Origin: Bacillota bacterium
Lineage (GTDB): Bacteria; Bacillota; UBA5301; JAMCQP01
Length of the DNA: 64,000 nucleotides
Direction of reading: 5' to 3'
Assembly: GCA_023381695.1 (NCBI GenBank)
Contig: JAMCQP010000026.1
Coordinates: 1 to 64,000 of the forward strand
Shown here: piece by piece, positions 3,172 to 54,299 of the stretch
Position numbering within the stretch: position 1 is the stretch's first letter
Layout of the letters: the number at the start of each line of letters is the position of its first letter
Notes under the pieces: generated by a model
The model's database searches: none
The model's input: only the letters and a program-made list of their open reading frames with translations
Told to the model about the DNA's origin: nothing
Position numbers and translations under genes: made by a program

Positions 3172-3837
3172 CTACTGCCCGTCCCGCTTTTCAAGATACC
3201 GCTCCAACTTGCGCTTAACCCTCTGCAGCGCGTTGTCAATAGACTTAACGTGGCGCTGGAGATCTTCGGCAATCTCTTGATAAGACTTGCCTTCCAGGTA
3301 GAACATCAAGACCTTCCACTCCAGGTCGCTCAAGAACTCGCCCATCTTATTCTCGATGTCGACGAAGTTCTCCCGGTTGATGATCATCTCCTCCGGGTCG
3401 CTGACCCTCGTCCCGGTAAGCACATCCAGCAAGGTGCGGTCGGATTCTTCGTCATAGATGGGCTTGTTGAGGGAAACGTACGAATTCAGCGGCATATGTT
3501 TCTGCCGCGTGGCGGTCTTGATCGCGGTAATAATCTGCCGGGTAATGCAAAGCTCGGCGAAAGCCCGAAAGGAGGCCAGCTTGTCCGGCCGGAAGTCGCG
3601 GATTGCCTTGTAAAGGCCGATCATCCCTTCCTGGATGATATCTTCCCGGTCGGCGCCGATGAGGAAATACGAACGCGCCTTGGCTCTGACAAAGTTCTTA
3701 TACTTGTTGATTAAGTACTCGAGCGCGATATCATCGCCGTTACGGGCTAGTTCAACCACCTCTTCGTCCACCAGTTCCTCATAGTTGAGATAAACACGTC
3801 GCTGGGCATTACTGGCACCCACTAGCATCGCCTCCAT
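3172..3837 (-). CDS. sigH: RNA polymerase sporulation sigma factor SigH
   Basis: sigma-70 family; 'ALEYLINKYKNFVRAKARSYFLIGADREDIIQEGMIGLYKAIRDF'; ORF extends to 3951 but a promoter at 3880-3909 argues for an internal start. Confidence 0.93.
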   Translation of the reverse strand: MEAMLVGASNAQRRVYLNYEELVDEEVVELARNGDDIALEYLINKYKNFVRAKARSYFLIGADREDIIQEGMIGLYKAIRDFRPDKLASFRAFAELCITRQIITAIKTATRQKHMPLNSYVSLNKPIYDEESDRTLLDVLTGTRVSDPEEMIINRENFVDIENKMGEFLSDLEWKVLMFYLEGKSYQEIAEDLQRHVKSIDNALQRVKRKLERYLEKRDGQ

Positions 3838-3879
3838 CCGTTGCATCTGGAACGGTCGGCCATCACACAATTCATCATC

Positions 3880-3909
3880 ATTATACACTAGACAGCAAAG
3901 ACAAGTCAA
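3880..3909 (-). promoter_or_regulatory. sigma-A type promoter upstream of sigH
   Basis: minus strand TTGACT-18 nt-TATAAT. Confidence 0.6.
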
Positions 3910-3947
3910 GTTGGATATGGGGGTTCGTCCTCGGACAAAAGCGGCCG

Positions 3948-5318
3948 TCATCTGCCTTCTGGCGCCCGTTGGGTTATATTACCTCCGATCCCCACCCGGA
4001 TCACCTCATCCTGGGCGCGATAGTAGTCCCTGGAGAGAAGCTCCCGACCAACCTCCACCCCATCCTTGAAGAAAACCCGGTAGACATTCACCCGGTAACC
4101 CTGTTTGGGATTAGTTTCTATCACCCGCTGGCCCATGGGCAATGCCGGGTCGAACTTGTTCTGGACCCCCGGTTCCACCGCCTCCACCTGCCCCACCACA
4201 ACCTGGGGGAAAGGAAGATCCTCCTTATGCCCCAGGACCCCCACGGTAAGCCTTGACTGCTTGATCTGGGCCGAAAGGACCACCGGGTGGGCACGGGCGT
4301 TGCGCAACTTCAGGTCGATCAACCCATCGTACACCGTGGCGTCCCGCCCGAGCGGGATATAATCCAGAAACTGCGAATGCGCCCGCCGCTCCACCACCTC
4401 CATGCCGGCCAATAAAGCGGCGTTGTAGAGGGTGGACGAGACCTGGCAAACCCCGCCCCCGGTCCCGGTCACCATCCGATCATCGGCGATCTCGGGCGCC
4501 GGCAGGTATCCGCGGGCCGGCGTCTTCGGCCCGGTGGTTGCATTGAACGAAAAGACTTCGCCCGGTCTGATGATTGCCCCATCCAGCGCCCTCACGGCCA
4601 GCATCATGTTCCGGGTGCGATGATCGCTCTCCGGGCCAACCAGGGTGGAATAGGTGGATAGAAGCTCCACCGCGCCTATCTGGTGGAGATTGGCCAGCGT
4701 CGTCCGGGGCAGGACCCGCCGTTCGAGGATCCTCACGATTCCCGGCCTTCGGGCGGCCACCGCCGCCTGAATCCTGGCCGCCGTGCCGTCGATATCAACC
4801 TCAAGGCCGGATCTCTCCGGGTATTGAATCCCCGTCTCCAGATCAATCCTGGCATTGAGCGCGGGGGTATTGCGTTCCCTGGCAATTTGCCCGACCACCT
4901 GGCGCAAGCGACGTTCAGACAGGACAATGGGCTCTCGAAGCGCCATTCCGTGCCTGGACGCCCGCCAGACCTGGATTAAACGCTCCGGAAAACTCCCCCG
5001 GCGCCCCACTTCAAAAGCCGTGGTGATGATCTTTTTGGTGTCAAGCCTGGCGCCAAGTTCGCCAAAAGTAAACTCCCAATTCTTATCGGCGGTTTTCAGG
5101 GTGATCCGCTCTTCCTGGAATTCCTTGCCAAAACGCTCAAGCAACGCGGAAGCCTGCGGGACGCTGAGGCGGCCAAGATCGGTGTCGGCCAGATGCACGC
5201 CCGCCAGAATCCGCCCGTCGCCGGCGCCATAGTAGACCCCCACTCCCAGCGAAGCTCCCACCAGAGCAACCGAAGCGGCGGCCACCAGCAAGATAAACAG
5301 GCTCCAACCCTTACCCAA
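3948..5318 (-). CDS. VanW family protein (peptidoglycan-binding-like N-terminus)
   Basis: 'PGEVFSFNATTGP...GGGVCQVSSTLYNAALLAGMEVVERRAHS' VanW signature. Confidence 0.9.
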   Translation of the reverse strand: MGKGWSLFILLVAAASVALVGASLGVGVYYGAGDGRILAGVHLADTDLGRLSVPQASALLERFGKEFQEERITLKTADKNWEFTFGELGARLDTKKIITTAFEVGRRGSFPERLIQVWRASRHGMALREPIVLSERRLRQVVGQIARERNTPALNARIDLETGIQYPERSGLEVDIDGTAARIQAAVAARRPGIVRILERRVLPRTTLANLHQIGAVELLSTYSTLVGPESDHRTRNMMLAVRALDGAIIRPGEVFSFNATTGPKTPARGYLPAPEIADDRMVTGTGGGVCQVSSTLYNAALLAGMEVVERRAHSQFLDYIPLGRDATVYDGLIDLKLRNARAHPVVLSAQIKQSRLTVGVLGHKEDLPFPQVVVGQVEAVEPGVQNKFDPALPMGQRVIETNPKQGYRVNVYRVFFKDGVEVGRELLSRDYYRAQDEVIRVGIGGNITQRAPEGR

Positions 5319-20637: not shown

Positions 20638-21182
20638 TTCTCCTTCCCCTTCTGGTTTTCCACAGCCTTGATCTTATCCCGGAGCTCTGCCGCCCGCTCG
20701 TACTGTTCGCGTTTGATGGCCTCTTGAAGCTCCTGCCGTAAGGCATCAAGCTGTTTTTGAGCTCTAGTGGCCCCTCCGGCCCGCGCGGGCACTTTTCCCC
20801 TGTGCAGGGTACTGCCCTGAATCTTCCTCAAAAGTTCGTCCAGGGACCGGTCAAAGTCCGCGTAACACTCGCTGCACCCGAAGAGCCCGGTCTCCCGGAA
20901 TTGGCCGGGAGTCATGCCGCAGTTGTGACAGTGGGCTTCCTGAGCCGGCTCCGTGGCTTCCCGGGTAAATTCCGGCTCGTAGTCTAACAGCCCCGCCAGG
21001 AAGTTTTGAAAGGTAAATTGAGGCGCCAGCATGAAATGCAGCGGGTTGTTCAGCAGCCCCAACTGGCCCGTCTCCGCAGCGCACTCCTGGCACAGGTGCA
21101 TCTCCGTCTTCTCGCCGTTTACCACTCTGGTAAGGTAAAAGGTGGCGGGGCGTTTCTGGCACCGATCGCATAACATGGTCAT
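20634..21182 (-). CDS. mcsA: McsA, UvrB/UvrC-motif protein
   Basis: 'CDRCQKRPATFYLT...CQEC', C-terminal UVR motif 'LRQELQEAIKREQYERAAELRDKI'. Confidence 0.92.
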   Translation of the reverse strand: MTMLCDRCQKRPATFYLTRVVNGEKTEMHLCQECAAETGQLGLLNNPLHFMLAPQFTFQNFLAGLLDYEPEFTREATEPAQEAHCHNCGMTPGQFRETGLFGCSECYADFDRSLDELLRKIQGSTLHRGKVPARAGGATRAQKQLDALRQELQEAIKREQYERAAELRDKIKAVENQKGKEK

Positions 21183-21649
21183 TACCCCCTACGCTCCAAA
21201 AGTACGGTCAAAATAGCCCGCAAAACCAGGGCCCGAAGTACATCCTGGAAAGGCACGCTGATCTTTTCGACCTCTTGCTCCAGAGCCGCTCTGACCATGG
21301 CGGCCTGCCGGTTATTCAGAAGCTGGGCGTCCACCAACCTGAGGAGCAGGTGCTCAGCCTCCCGCTGGCTCAAACTCTCGCCGATCTCCCGCTGGATAAC
21401 CCCGGCCAGCTCCTCCGCGGGCTGCCAGGACAACTGCATGATCCGGATGTAGCCCCCGCCGCCGCGGCGGGTTTCCACCACATACCCCCGCCGGGTCGTA
21501 AATCTGGTCTCCAGCACATAGTTGATCTGCGACGGAGCGCATTCGAACTGATCGGCGAGTTCACGCCGCTGAATCTCCAGGACGCCGTGTTCCGCCTGCT
21601 CCAAAAGGTTGCGCAGGTGCTTTTCGATGTGATCCGACAAGCTTTCCAT
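21182..21649 (-). CDS. ctsR: transcriptional repressor CtsR
   Basis: 'RRELADQFECAPSQINYVLETRFTTRRGYVVETRRGGGGYIRI'. Confidence 0.95.
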   Translation of the reverse strand: MESLSDHIEKHLRNLLEQAEHGVLEIQRRELADQFECAPSQINYVLETRFTTRRGYVVETRRGGGGYIRIMQLSWQPAEELAGVIQREIGESLSQREAEHLLLRLVDAQLLNNRQAAMVRAALEQEVEKISVPFQDVLRALVLRAILTVLLERRG

Positions 21650-21663
21650 GCACCCGTTCCCCC

Positions 21664-21696
21664 TCTGACCTTCTTTGACCTTTTGACCTTATTATA
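21664..21696 (-). promoter_or_regulatory. CtsR operator overlapping/following the ctsR -10
   Basis: minus strand TATAATAAGGTCAAAAGGTCAAAGAAGGTCAGA: tandem GGTCAAA heptads. Confidence 0.8.
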
Positions 21697-21884
21697 GCAC
21701 AGCCGCTGGTTGCAGCTAAACTCCAATTTCAACCATCTTCGGCAGATTTTTGGCGCCAAAATACAAGAACATCCTCATCTTCCCCGGCACGCTGCATATT
21801 ATAACCCTCCGGCTCTTTGCAGCATAACTTCCGGCCCCGTCCGGCTACAAAAATTTTATTTTTGGTATCGGAAAAAGGAGGATT

Positions 21885-21912
21885 TTGTCGAAGAATGTCG
21901 AATCGGTATTAA
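21885..21912 (+). promoter_or_regulatory. candidate Spo0A-controlled promoter
   Basis: two TGTCGAA boxes (21886-21892, 21896-21902) overlapping TTGTCG-16-TATTAA. Confidence 0.55.
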
Positions 21913-21918
21913 CATAAA

Positions 21919-22056
21919 GTGGGTTATCCCGTGTGCCGAGACCAGACCCCCTCCTTTCCCTGGTCTCACCAGCACGCGGATAACTATAAAACCTACTTCT
22001 TTTCATTCATTCTCCTTTCTAAGAGGGCCTTTTCGAAGGCACCTCTTCTTTTTTTA
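21919..22056 (+). ncRNA. candidate novel small RNA with anti-SD-like loop
   Basis: hairpin 21923-21984 (7 bp + bulge + 6 bp + internal loop + 8 bp) with loop ACCCCCTCCTTTCC; linker with TCTCCTTTCT; terminator 22021-22055; no convincing ORF. Confidence 0.65.
22021..22055 (+). terminator. intrinsic terminator of the candidate sRNA
   Basis: AAGAGG GCCTT TTCG AAGGC A CCTCTT C TTTTTTT; T-run only on the plus strand. Confidence 0.85.
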
Positions 22057-22080
22057 TATATGATTCCATTGCAAAAAGTT

Positions 22081-23031
22081 TCAGGCAGGCCGCCGTTCCC
22101 GCAGGGCTTCCTGTATCTCCGGAATGCAGCTTTCCATGGCCTCGGCGCCCCTGCGGATATTTTCGTCCAGGGAACTGATGTCGAAATAGCCCACATCGTA
22201 GATTCTGGGTTTAACCCGGATTACCGGCCTGGCCCTGGCGTGCTTCAGCAGCTTGAAATAGAGATCCACCTTGCCGCGGCCCATGATATCCATGGATTGA
22301 ATCACCATCTCCAGGATATTATCGATCTCTTCCCTTCTTTCCCCGGCATAGCCCAGATCCACCGCCACCACCAGATCGGCGCCCATCTCAAAGAGCAGAT
22401 CCACCGGTATAAATGAGGTCAGGCCGCCATCCACAAGCACGCGGCCGGCAAGCTTCTTGGGATGAAAGACCCCGGGGATGGCGATACTGGCCCGGATTGC
22501 ATCGGCCAGCCCTATCTCGTCCAGAACTTCATCGTCGGCCATCTCCGGCCGGGCGCGGAGCTTTTCACGCATCACACGGCTTGTGAAGACCACCCGCTGG
22601 CCGCTGTTGATATCGGTCGCCACCACGGCGATGGGGATCCGGCAGGTGTCAAAGCTTTCCGAGGCCAGCCGACGCCGGAAGAGTTCTTCCAGGCGGTCCC
22701 CTTTTATTACCCCCGCCGGCGCCGAATTGAAGGGCCCTGTCTTCCCCCAGGCCAGCTCGGTCACCACCTTGCCCAGCGCCGACATCAACTGGGGCGCGGA
22801 ATCCCAGTCCAGGAAGTTCGTCTTCACCAGGCGCCTGGTAAACTGTTCAATTTCCGCGGGCTTCATCCCCACCCCGTACAGGACAGCCACAATGCTTCCC
22901 GCACTGGTGCCGGACAGAAGATCCGGCACCAGATCGTGCTTTCCCAGCACCTGCAACACGCCGATATGCGCCATCCCTCGCAATCCGCCGCCGCTTAAGG
23001 CCAGCCCGATCTTCGGCCTGGAAGGTTCCAT
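22081..23031 (-). CDS. patatin-like phospholipase (second copy)
   Basis: 'GLALSGGGLRGMAHIGV', 'GTSAGS', 'DGGL'. Confidence 0.88.
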   Translation of the reverse strand: MEPSRPKIGLALSGGGLRGMAHIGVLQVLGKHDLVPDLLSGTSAGSIVAVLYGVGMKPAEIEQFTRRLVKTNFLDWDSAPQLMSALGKVVTELAWGKTGPFNSAPAGVIKGDRLEELFRRRLASESFDTCRIPIAVVATDINSGQRVVFTSRVMREKLRARPEMADDEVLDEIGLADAIRASIAIPGVFHPKKLAGRVLVDGGLTSFIPVDLLFEMGADLVVAVDLGYAGERREEIDNILEMVIQSMDIMGRGKVDLYFKLLKHARARPVIRVKPRIYDVGYFDISSLDENIRRGAEAMESCIPEIQEALRERRPA

Positions 23032-23087
23032 CACGTTTCCCTCCTTGTTGGTTCCCTTGAAAAAGTCCGCCCCGTTGCTCCAAAAGC

Positions 23088-24260
23088 TTAAAAGACCTGC
23101 AGGACCAGGCACTTCAAATAGTAGGTTTCCTTGACACCTAAAAGGATGGGGTGATCCGCCGCCTGGGTCCGCAGGGCCACCCGTCTGAGCTCTTTCTTCG
23201 CATCGCGGGCGGCCATGAGCACCGTGTCCACAAAGAGATCCTCCGTCATATGGTGCGAACAGGAGCAGGTGATGAGAACCCCCCCCGGCGGCAAAAGCTT
23301 CATGGCTCTGAGATTGATCTCCTTGTACCCGCGGACGGCTCCCGCCAGCGCCTGCCGGTTCTTGGCAAAGGCGGGGGGATCCAGGATTACGGTGTCGAAT
23401 GCCACCTTCTCATCCGCATATTTACGCAGGAGGTCAAAGGCGTTCCCCACCTCAAACCGGCACCTTTCGCCGAGGCCGTTGACCGCTGCGTTACGATAAG
23501 CGGTACGAACGGCCGGTTCAGAGATATCGAGGCCCGTCACCTCTTTTGCCCCGTAATGCGCGGCATGAATGCTGAAGGTTCCGGTGTTGCAAAAAGCGTC
23601 CAAAACCCGTGCGCCATCCACAAACGGTGCGATGGCCCGCCGGTTCTCCTTTTGATCCAGGAAATACCCGGTCTTTTGCCCCTCCACCACATCCACATGG
23701 AAAGCCAGGCCGTTTTCCCGGATGAGAAACTCCCCATCGGGCACGCCCAGGAGGGGGCCCTTCTGGACCGGCAGACCTTCAAGCTCCCGGACAGCCACGT
23801 CGTTGCGCTCATAGATCACCCTCGGCTTGAGCAACTCCTGGATGGCGGCCAGAATCCAATCCTTTCGTTGATCCATGCCCAGCGCCAGAGTCTGCAGCAC
23901 CACATGGTCTTCATACTTATCAACGATCAGCGCCGGCAAAAAATCTCCTTCGCCAAAGACCACCCTGAAGGAGGTGGCTTCTGGCATCACCCGCCGCCGG
24001 TAGTCCAGCGCCCGCGCGATCCGCCGGTGAAAGAAACCTTCGTCGATCGCCTCGTCCCGCCACGTCAGGACCCGGATGGCAATCTGCGAGAAAGGGTTTA
24101 TGTACCCTCTGCCGAGAAAAAAACCGGCTGAGTTGACCACATCCACAATATCGCCGGGGTTGAACCCTCCCTCAACCCTCTCGATCTCTCCTGCGTACAC
24201 CCAGGGATGGCCGTCCTTGAGACGGCGGTCCTTCCCGCGCCGCAGAATCGCCCTTGCCAA
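23088..24260 (-). CDS. class I SAM-dependent rRNA methyltransferase (RlmI/YccW-like, PUA N-terminus)
   Basis: 'GRRLKDGHPWVYAGEI', 'VLDAFCNTGTFSIHAA', 'DPPAFAKN'. Confidence 0.9.
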   Translation of the reverse strand: MARAILRRGKDRRLKDGHPWVYAGEIERVEGGFNPGDIVDVVNSAGFFLGRGYINPFSQIAIRVLTWRDEAIDEGFFHRRIARALDYRRRVMPEATSFRVVFGEGDFLPALIVDKYEDHVVLQTLALGMDQRKDWILAAIQELLKPRVIYERNDVAVRELEGLPVQKGPLLGVPDGEFLIRENGLAFHVDVVEGQKTGYFLDQKENRRAIAPFVDGARVLDAFCNTGTFSIHAAHYGAKEVTGLDISEPAVRTAYRNAAVNGLGERCRFEVGNAFDLLRKYADEKVAFDTVILDPPAFAKNRQALAGAVRGYKEINLRAMKLLPPGGVLITCSCSHHMTEDLFVDTVLMAARDAKKELRRVALRTQAADHPILLGVKETYYLKCLVLQVF

Positions 24261-39328: not shown

Positions 39329-39985
39329 CTACCGCTTATCCAGACGCCTGGCCGCCCGGTCGCCGAAGCTCTGGATCACCTGCACCACTGCGATCAGGAT
39401 CACCACCGTGGCCACCATGATGTCCCCGCGGAAACGCTGGTACCCGTACCGAACCGCCAGATCGCCCAGACCACCTCCTCCCACCGCGCCGGCCATGGCG
39501 GAATATCCAATAAGGCTTACGGTGGTAATGGTGACCCCCAGCACCAGGCCGGGCATCGCCTCCGGGAGCAACACCTTCCGGATGATCTGCCACGGCGTGG
39601 CTCCCATGGCCTGGGCGGCTTCGATCACCCCGCGGTCAACCTCCTGGAGAGCGCTCTCCACCAGGCGTGCCACAAAAGGGATGGCCGCCACCGTGAGAGG
39701 AACCATGGCGGCGGTGGTCCCGATGGAGGTGCCCACCACCAGGCGGGTGAAGGGAATGATGGCCACCATCAGGATGATGAAAGGCACCGAACGTCCCACG
39801 TTGACCACCCAACCCAAAACCTTGTTCAAAAGCGGCCGCTCCAGAATATGCCGCGGCCCCGTCACCACCAGCAGCACTCCCAGCGGGATTCCGAAGAGCA
39901 CCGAGAGCGCCACCGACACCCCCACCATATAGATCGTCTCCAGGAGGGCTTCAGCCAGTATACTCAAGGTAAGCTGGCTCCACAT
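39329..39985 (-). CDS. metI: methionine ABC transporter permease
   Basis: '[25 protein letters not shown]...[27 protein letters not shown]'. Confidence 0.92.
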
Positions 39986-41012
39986 GCCTGAGCACCTCGC
40001 ATTCCAGACCGAGTTCCTTCAAATGTTCAATCCCCTTTTTTACCGTGCCGTTCTTCCCCGTCAACTCCACCACCAGCATCCCGAAGGGTATCTCCTTGAA
40101 ATGGTCGATCTTCCCGTAAAGGATGTTGGCGTCCAGGTCAAATTCCCGGACCAACGATGAGATAATGGGTTTACCGGCGGCCTCTCCCACAAACGAGATC
40201 CGGACAATCTCCCCCTCAAACCCCCGGTTGGCCAGCACCAGCCGGTGGGTGCGCACCTCCTCGGGAATCTCGCTCTGCATGACGCCCTTGATGAATTCCC
40301 GGGCCGTCCTGGTTCTGGTGTTGGTGAAGACCTCCCGGACCGGCCCCTGTTCGATGATCACCCCATCTTCAATGACGGCCACCGTGTCGCAGATCTCCTT
40401 GATCACGTTCATCTCGTGGGTGATGAGCATGATGGTGAGCCCGAGCTGTTTGTTGATCTCCCGCAAAAGTTCCAGGATGGAAGCGGTGGTCTGCGGATCC
40501 AGCGCCGAGGTGGCCTCATCGGAGAGCAACACCTTCGGCCGGTTGGCCAGGGCCCTGGCGATCCCCACCCTCTGCTTCTGGCCGCCGGAAAGCTGCGCCG
40601 GAAAGGCGCCGGCTTTTTCAGCCAATCCCACCATCTCCAGAAGTTCCATCACCCGCCGGCGAATCTCCGGGCGGGGAACGCCGGCGATCTCCAGCGGGAA
40701 CGCCACATTGCCAAAGACCGTCCGGGAGGAGAGCAGGTTGAAATGCTGAAAGATCATGCCGATCTCCCGGCGCGCCGCGCGCAGATCCTTTTCGCCCAGC
40801 CTGGTGACATCCTGATCCCCGATATAGACCGAACCGCTCTGGGGCCGTTCCAGCATGTTGATGCAACGGATCAGGGTGCTCTTTCCGGCCCCGCTTAAAC
40901 CGATGATCCCGAAGATCTCGCCTTCGGCGACCTCCAGGCTGACGCCCTTCAAGGCTTCCACCCTGGCGCCTCCGTTGTCGAAGACCTTGGTTACATTTAC
41001 AATCCTGATCAT
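39951..41012 (-). CDS. metN: methionine ABC transporter ATP-binding protein
   Basis: Walker A '[15 protein letters not shown]', '[15 protein letters not shown]', C-terminal NIL domain. Confidence 0.94.
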
Positions 41013-41066: not shown

Positions 41067-41178
41067 CTCTTATCTTCCAGAACCAAAAGGTCCTGCAGGA
41101 ATTGGCACCTTTCCAGTATGCCATACTGGCCGTTGCCGGGCTTCATCGGGCCTGTCCCTCTGCCTCTCTGGATAAGAG
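41067..41178 (-). ncRNA. SAM-I (S-box) riboswitch upstream of metN
   Basis: CTCTTATCCAGAGAGGCAGAGGGACAGGCCCGATGAAGCCCGGCAACGG...AAAGGTGCCAATTCCTGCAG...GATAAGAG. Confidence 0.95.
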
Positions 41179-52620: not shown

Positions 52621-53364
52621 TCACCCCCCGACCGCGGCTTTCCGCTTCTTGCGCCAGACCAACCGCGCGATCAAGATGCTGATTTCAAATAGGACGATCA
52701 TCGGCAACGCCATCATGGTCTGGGTAAAAATATCCGGTGTGGGCGTCAAAACAGCCGCCAGCACAAATATTCCCAGGATGGCATACCGCCGCTTTTTTGC
52801 CAAAGCCTCGGGCCGGATGATCCCCAGCCACGCCAGAAAAAGCACCAGAACCGGCAGTTCAAAAACCAGTCCAAATGGCAGCGCAAGGCCCAGTACAAAG
52901 GAGATATAGTTGTTAACGGTAATCATGGCCTCGAGGTTGTCGCCGGCGAAGGTGAGGAAGAAGCGCATCGCCGCCGGGATGATTAAGAAATAGGCAAAAG
53001 TTACGCCGCCGACAAACAGCAAAAAAGAGATTGGCACCAACAGAAAGCCGAGCCTCCTCTGCCGCCGGTTCAAGGAGGGGGAGATGAACCGCCAGAGGTG
53101 CCACAACGCCATTGGCAGCGTGATGATCGCGCCAACCGCGACGGCGATCTTGATTTGAGCAAAGAACGCTTCGGAAGGGCTCAAAAAGACCATCTGTTTC
53201 AAGGTGGATCCCGCCATCTGCAAGAGAAGGCGCGGGGCGTAGAAGTACGCCGCCACCGTGGACGCCGCCAAAAAGACGGCGATCCAGATCAACCGCCGCC
53301 GCAGTTCATCAAGGTGTCCGAGCAAAGAAGAGAATTCCACCTGTGGCAACCCGAATTCAGCCAT
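52621..53364 (-). CDS. tatC: twin-arginine translocase TatC (copy 1)
   Basis: 'LLGHLDELRRRLIW', 'FGLVFELPVLV', 'TPTPDIFTQTMMALPMIVLFEI'. Confidence 0.92.
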   Translation of the reverse strand: MAEFGLPQVEFSSLLGHLDELRRRLIWIAVFLAASTVAAYFYAPRLLLQMAGSTLKQMVFLSPSEAFFAQIKIAVAVGAIITLPMALWHLWRFISPSLNRRQRRLGFLLVPISFLLFVGGVTFAYFLIIPAAMRFFLTFAGDNLEAMITVNNYISFVLGLALPFGLVFELPVLVLFLAWLGIIRPEALAKKRRYAILGIFVLAAVLTPTPDIFTQTMMALPMIVLFEISILIARLVWRKKRKAAVGG

Positions 53365-54139
53365 TTGGCATCCCCTTCCTGGTGAATCTAGCAACTAAAA
53401 CCCCGATCTCGAAGAGAGCGATCATCGGCGCCGCCATCAACACCTGCGAAACCACGTCGGGCGGCGTCAGGACGGCTCCCAGCACAAAGGCCCAGAAATA
53501 AGCATGCTTTCGGTGCCTGAGCAAAAAGTTCAGATCAATAATCCCCAGCTTGATGAGGATCACCACCACCACCGGAAGCTCAAACATCAGGCCGAATGGG
53601 ATGAGCAGGGAAAGAACAAATCCCACCAGCCTGCCCACCGCCATCACGGGCTTAAGCCGCATGGTGCCGAAACCCAAAAAGAAGCTGAGGGCGATCGGGT
53701 AGATTACCAGATACGCAAAGACCACCCCCAACAAAAAGAGGAGGATGATCAACGGCACGTACCGCCGTAGATACCTCTCCTCCCGCCTGGTCAGTCCCGG
53801 CAGGACAAACCGCCAGATCTCGCTGAGCACCACCGGAGAAGCAAAGACCAAACCGATCATCAGGGCGATCTTCAGGTAGGTGAAGAACCCCTCGGCGGGG
53901 GCCACGAAGATCAGCCGGCCAACCGACCTCCCGAGGATGCGCACCACGCGAGGCGCCAGGAGGTATCCGCCCACCGAACCAACCGCCGTGGCAGCCGAAG
54001 AGACAATGATCCTTCGCCGCAACTCGCCAAGATGCTCAACGATGGTCATTGTCCCATCCGGTCTTTCCGCGATCAACCCGCCTTCCGGCCCCTCGGCAAG
54101 GCTCTGGTCACTTGTCGGCCTTGCTGTTCTTTGCGTCAT
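53357..54139 (-). CDS. tatC: twin-arginine translocase TatC (copy 2)
   Basis: '[15 protein letters not shown]', '[11 protein letters not shown]', '[22 protein letters not shown]'. Confidence 0.92.
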
Positions 54140-54299
54140 TGCCCTCTTCCTTGTCATTATTGACGGCACGCTTAAATTCGGTTATGCTGCGACCGATCGC
54201 CTTGCCCACCTCAGGAAGTTTCGCCGGCCCAAAGATGATTAGAGCAACCACCAGGATCAGGATCAGTTCCGGGACGCCGATTCCAAACACCTTGCTCAC
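54108..54299 (-). CDS. tatA: TatA/TatE family translocase subunit
   Basis: '[42 protein letters not shown]'. Confidence 0.93.

Follow-up and report, generated by a model that had tools for sequence, protein, structure and literature searches.

A probable SigH-dependent small RNA gene next to ctsR, with a conserved loop suited to cover ribosome-binding sites

The window analysed here, a 64,000-nt stretch that comprises most of contig C97 in a draft genome of a spore-former-type Bacillota bacterium (G000; 3.76 Mb in 122 contigs), contains a compact unit on the plus strand between two minus-strand genes, those for the heat-shock regulator CtsR and for a patatin. Read 5' to 3', this unit begins with what looks like a promoter, continues with a long hairpin and a linker rich in C and U, and ends in an intrinsic terminator. 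Such a plus-strand unit flanked by minus-strand genes had been described in a first-pass annotation of the sequence, which placed the individual features correctly, including the hairpin arms GTTATCC/GGATAAC, GTGTGC/GCACGC and GAGACCAG/CTGGTCTC, all of which fall within the main hairpin. The relevant features are as follows (G003 denotes a second genome of the same class that carries a homologue).

3172-3951, minus strand: sigH (TIGR02859, E 1.5e-113), whose product is the sigma factor that presumably recognises the promoter at 21879-21903
21182-21649, minus strand: ctsR (Pfam CtsR match)
21879-21903, plus strand: SigH-type promoter AGGATTT-N14-GAAT (that is, AGGA, 17-nt spacer, GAAT), assigned from spacing enrichment, the G003 homologue and published SigH promoters
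21886-21892 and 21896-21902, plus strand: two TGTCGAA boxes, the first within the promoter spacer and not conserved, the second overlapping the -10 element
21910-22056, plus strand: predicted small RNA of about 147 nt (5' end placed at 21909-21912 from promoter geometry)
21923-21984, plus strand: main hairpin, present in the fold of this RNA and in that of the G003 homologue
21938-21945 paired with 21960-21967, plus strand: apical 8-bp stem, with three double-compensatory changes in G003
21946-21959, plus strand: putative anti-Shine-Dalgarno loop ACCCCCUCCUUUCC, 14 nt, unpaired, identical in G003
21968-21972, plus strand: ACCAG, adjoining the apical stem on its 3' side, conserved in G003
21997-22020, plus strand: unpaired CU-rich linker with a second Shine-Dalgarno-complementary word, CUCCUUU; missing in G003
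22021-22056, plus strand: intrinsic terminator (terminator scan and fold), stem 22021-22047 followed by a T-run
22081-23112, minus strand: patatin gene (Pfam match)

The patatin gene next to the unit is one of two genes for patatin-like phospholipases identified by Pfam in the window, the other being located at 244-1185, also on the minus strand.

The plus strand of 21919-22060 is predicted to fold with an energy of -46.6 kcal/mol, compared to -25.2 +/- 3.1 kcal/mol for shuffled sequences (z = -6.8; none of the 200 shuffles was as good). The terminator is the sole terminator-like site between 20500 and 23500, and its T-run is present on the plus strand only, as the first-pass annotation had it. 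None of the open reading frames overlapping the RNA has a Pfam match.

The -35 element of the promoter, AGGATTT at 21879-21885, which had been overlooked previously, is separated by 14 nt from GAAT at 21900-21903, and TGTCGAAT at 21896 includes the -10 element. The 17-nt distance from AGGA to GAAT falls within the arrangement of the mapped SigH promoters of Sporomusa sphaeroides (AGGA, 17-18-nt spacer, GAAT; PMC12456013). By eye, AGGA-17-GAA can also be read in the spo0A leaders of genomes G002, G003 and G005, in agreement with the SigH-dependent start site of spo0A in Clostridioides difficile (PMC10267692). Across the genome, AGGATTT-N8/20-GAAT yields 44 matches, among which 20 have the N14 spacing and 7 the N15 spacing, with 17 distributed over the other eleven spacings together; thus, 20 exact N14 sites compare with about 1.5 per off-spacing, the off-spacings being used as the control because the reversed pattern contains stop-like words. 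Thirteen of the 20 exact sites are located shortly upstream of an open reading frame, and one precedes the second SigH-type gene. Within the window, AGGANNTT-N8/14-TCGAAT occurs once, versus 0.08 expected. Among the matches listed, TGTC immediately precedes GAAT at 5 of 100 sites, versus 0.4 expected under equal base frequencies; because of this excess at other SigH-type sites, TGTCGAAT looks like a favoured form of the -10 element. A sigma-70-like promoter scan called nothing at the locus, so that TTGTCG-16-TATTAA, the promoter suggested earlier, was not recovered. Reading the site as a SigH promoter instead of as Spo0A boxes also gives a simple rule, open to testing, by which further SigH promoters may be found in this genome, namely AGGATTT-N14/15-GAAT.

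The genome encodes two SigH-type proteins, one in the window (3172-3951) and one on contig C110, the latter behind a SigH-type promoter of its own. Elsewhere in the window, two tandem tatC genes (52621-54169, minus strand; both Pfam TatC) overlap by a few codons, and an AGGATTT-N15-GAAT SigH-type site is located upstream of the pair (54386-54361, minus strand).

A DNA search of the seven available genomes of the class and of 54 genomes from elsewhere in the phylum yielded a single match, in G003 (E = 8.2e-5), which belongs to a different family; the CtsR proteins of the two are 57% identical. The G003 copy is syntenic, that is, divergent to ctsR, and its promoter reads AGGA-17-GAAG, with a spacing identical to that in the window. 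The RNA itself (z = -6.1) folds into a single long hairpin with a T-run behind it; a terminator is present in both species. A 20-nt block, CAGACCCCCTCCTTTCCCTG, is identical in the two species, and the remaining intergenic spacer has drifted, save for part of the ctsR promoter region. In that region (21664-21700, minus strand), and in G003 too, tandem GGTCAAA-like repeats were read by eye; these look like CtsR operators and might reflect autoregulation.

The apical stem, GAGACCAG/CTGGTCTC in the window, reads CAGGTCAG/CTGACCTG in G003: three pairs are altered on both sides, five are the same and none is broken, whereas the 14-nt loop and the 3' ACCAG are kept fixed. When the partner arm is slid by 1-3 columns, only 12-35% of the cells are paired, and by direct count the chance that three random changes per arm match is about 7e-4; a shuffle test (73/500) has no power because there are only two sequences. 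Compensatory substitutions, which the first-pass annotation had put forward as a check on its proposal, are thus present in this pair of sequences, and together with synteny they strengthen its claim that the plus strand encodes a small RNA. With a promoter of its own, a structure under apparent selection, its own terminator and both neighbouring genes on the opposite strand, the unit resembles, as far as can be judged from sequence, a trans-acting sRNA gene.

The RNA is present in two of the seven class genomes (G000 and G003); no copy was detected in the other five, near ctsR or elsewhere, nor in the phylum sample, of which 392 more genomes were searched with a covariance model under strict filters that can lose weak copies. 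This model was built from the two hand-trimmed sequences and accordingly matches G000 and G003 by construction. Four more weak matches in the 399 phylum genomes (E 0.001-0.007) all lie within long open frames, and two weak matches in the class at E <= 1 lie within coding sequence; all were rejected. The loop pattern with up to two mismatches matches 29 of the 399 genomes, but the same hairpin with such a promoter recurs only in G003. When named genomes were scanned for CtsR, the only hits were in Paenibacillus, which lacks the loop motif, and searches of plasmid and viral collections returned nothing. The first-pass annotation did not recognise the RNA as 6S, SRP, tmRNA or RNase P, and in Rfam it stays below the gathering score of every family; lax thresholds gave chance matches only, and the G003 RNA has no Rfam match at E <= 1. 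The window does contain a SAM riboswitch (RF00162, 90 bits) at 41067-41178 on the minus strand, directly upstream of the open reading frame for an ABC-transporter ATPase (39951-41012).

Given this narrow distribution, the RNA very probably represents a previously undescribed family, of a functional kind that is already known, and it is added to a bacterial class represented here by fragmented draft genomes. It also offers a concrete candidate for a SigH-promoted anti-Shine-Dalgarno small RNA; to our knowledge, post-transcriptional control of entry into sporulation has been little explored outside Bacillus and C. difficile.

Each position of the loop ACCCCCUCCUUUCC is unpaired with a probability of at least 0.99 in both RNAs, and the loop is complementary to Shine-Dalgarno sequences. 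Part of it, CCUCCUUUC, corresponds to the anti-Shine-Dalgarno sequence with which 16S rRNA ends in Firmicutes; since none of the seven class genomes, all draft assemblies, shows the 16S tail pattern, the likeness to the host's own anti-Shine-Dalgarno is presumed from Firmicutes in general. Unpaired C-rich motifs that cover the Shine-Dalgarno sequence are described as characteristic of sRNAs in low-GC bacteria (PMC4132741), and rhizobial RNAs with CCUCCUCCC loops likewise keep the loop fixed while the stem varies (PMC3927594); given these precedents, we take repression by Shine-Dalgarno masking under SigH control as the most likely function, and the conserved, unpaired, complementary motif is a feature that the RNA has in common with the sRNAs with UCCC or C-rich loops.

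The locus beside ctsR thus very probably harbours an undescribed small RNA gene that is switched on by SigH and whose loop is fit for covering mRNA ribosome-binding sites. Promoter class, covarying structure, loop conservation and synteny are established computationally, and from these we infer that the RNA is expressed, where it starts and ends, that it pairs with mRNAs in the cell and represses them, and which mRNAs are hit. Under the best explanation, to which we give reasonable though far from full confidence, SigH activity arising at entry to stationary phase or sporulation would cause SigH-RNA polymerase to transcribe a stand-alone, trans-acting sRNA gene (21910-22056, plus strand) from 21879-21903 up to its own terminator; the long hairpin would present the 14-nt pyrimidine loop as an open anti-Shine-Dalgarno seed, and the RNA, by pairing with a group of mRNAs at their G-rich Shine-Dalgarno regions, would block ribosome binding and hence initiation of translation. 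Against this model are the absence of the CU-rich linker from G003 and the number of homologues, only two, both from drafts. The SigH regulon can extend well past sporulation, with 322 start sites in Sporomusa (PMC12456013), which leaves as much room for a metabolic role as for a developmental one.

Candidate targets were sought as complements of the loop core GGAAAGGAGGGG with at most one mismatch, which gave 56 sites in G000 and 58 in G003; 20 of the 54 loci read in G000 and 24 of the 57 in G003 lie at Shine-Dalgarno distance from a possible start. No target orthologue shared by these 20 and 24 candidates was recognised. Because Shine-Dalgarno sequences are generic, such complementarity counts for little. 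The Shine-Dalgarno sequence of spo0A in G003, GAAAGGAGGGG, is complementary to the loop over 11 contiguous bases; the spo0A leader in G000 has only a shorter complementary G-run. In G000, spoIIR (TIGR02837) is among the candidates, although one sporulation gene among some twenty is unsurprising. As putative targets that are not common to both species, spo0A (G003) and spoIIR (G000) are leads only. It is conceivable, although distinctly unlikely, that the RNA is a lineage-specific, SigH-dependent sRNA whose loop, resembling the 3' tail of 16S rRNA, exerts feedback on entry into sporulation, masking the sites at which ribosomes bind these early sporulation mRNAs.

Several other readings of the locus have to be weighed. 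The first-pass annotation proposed activation by Spo0A, with the two TGTCGAA boxes as its binding sites; the two copies are indeed 10 bp apart, and G000 has two Spo0A-type genes over the family cut-off (contigs C110 and C86). However, the window has 10 copies of TGTCGAA where 6.5 are expected, which is no significant enrichment, so the pair alone is weak evidence, and the second box belongs to a -10 form that recurs at other SigH-type sites. Moreover, in G003 other bases stand in place of the first box and the second is ATCGAAG, while the SigH spacing is exactly kept. With both boxes broken in the sole homologue, direct control by Spo0A is unsupported, and we consider it very improbable; any link to Spo0A would at most be indirect, via SigH physiology. 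A SigH-driven structured RNA that acts by another route, with the C/U-rich loop binding a protein or another regulatory RNA instead of mRNA, is unlikely but less so: loop and promoter are conserved, yet no target orthologue was recognised as common to the two species, and this has to be set against the presence in the loop of CCUCCUU, an anti-Shine-Dalgarno word of the kind by which Firmicute sRNAs most often find their targets (PMC4132741).

The element might instead belong to the minus strand, as a hairpin in a patatin-ctsR read-through transcript or as a 53-aa open reading frame (21845-22006). The hairpin does fold on that strand, if less strongly (z = -4.9 in the window and -4.5 in G003), and the frame has a good Shine-Dalgarno sequence, AGAAAGGAG, a few bases before its ATG; but the T-run is absent from the minus strand in both species, the hairpin persists in G003 although the patatin gene is not beside the RNA there, the 53-aa frame lacks a Pfam match and no frame of at least 60 aa lies opposite the G003 RNA, which makes this reading extremely unlikely. 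Just as improbable is a cis-acting leader or small-peptide gene in which the upstream AAGGAGG would be the Shine-Dalgarno sequence of a short frame and could pair with CCUCCUU in the loop. Although AAGGAGGATTTT, 5' of the hairpin, is conserved in both species and complementary to the loop, no plus-strand gene intervenes before the terminator, the possible short frames differ between the species, and AAGGAGG would lie outside the transcript because AGGATTT-N14-GAAT is a genome-wide promoter spacing.

The trans-acting, SigH-dependent sRNA favoured here has its closest counterparts in LhrC of Listeria monocytogenes and the other UCCC-motif sRNAs, RsaE, FsrA, SprD and RNAIII (PMC4132741), which similarly have a C/U-rich unpaired loop and linker able to cover the Shine-Dalgarno sequence and two stem-loops, the last being the terminator. 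No sequence match to these families was found in Rfam, the loop here is CCCCCUCCUUUCC, and the LhrC family, compared via Rfam only, is not among the Rfam matches at E <= 10; furthermore, LhrC is controlled by the LisRK two-component system and exists in five copies, in contrast to one copy behind a SigH-type promoter in our case. The rhizobial SmelA075 and SmelA099 (PMC3927594) resemble the RNA in that the anti-Shine-Dalgarno loop is fixed and the stem sequence changes, but have three or four such hairpins instead of one and are unrelated in phylum and sequence. SpoX and SpoY of C. difficile are sRNAs acting at sporulation initiation, and SpoY blocks the ribosome-binding region of spo0A (PMC10267692); the 11-nt spo0A complementarity in G003, of a strength not found in G000, would parallel this at the level of function. 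The best explanation appears to be that the RNA acts in the manner of LhrC and of the rhizobial RNAs with CCUCCUCCC loops, as an analogue with no homology to them implied.
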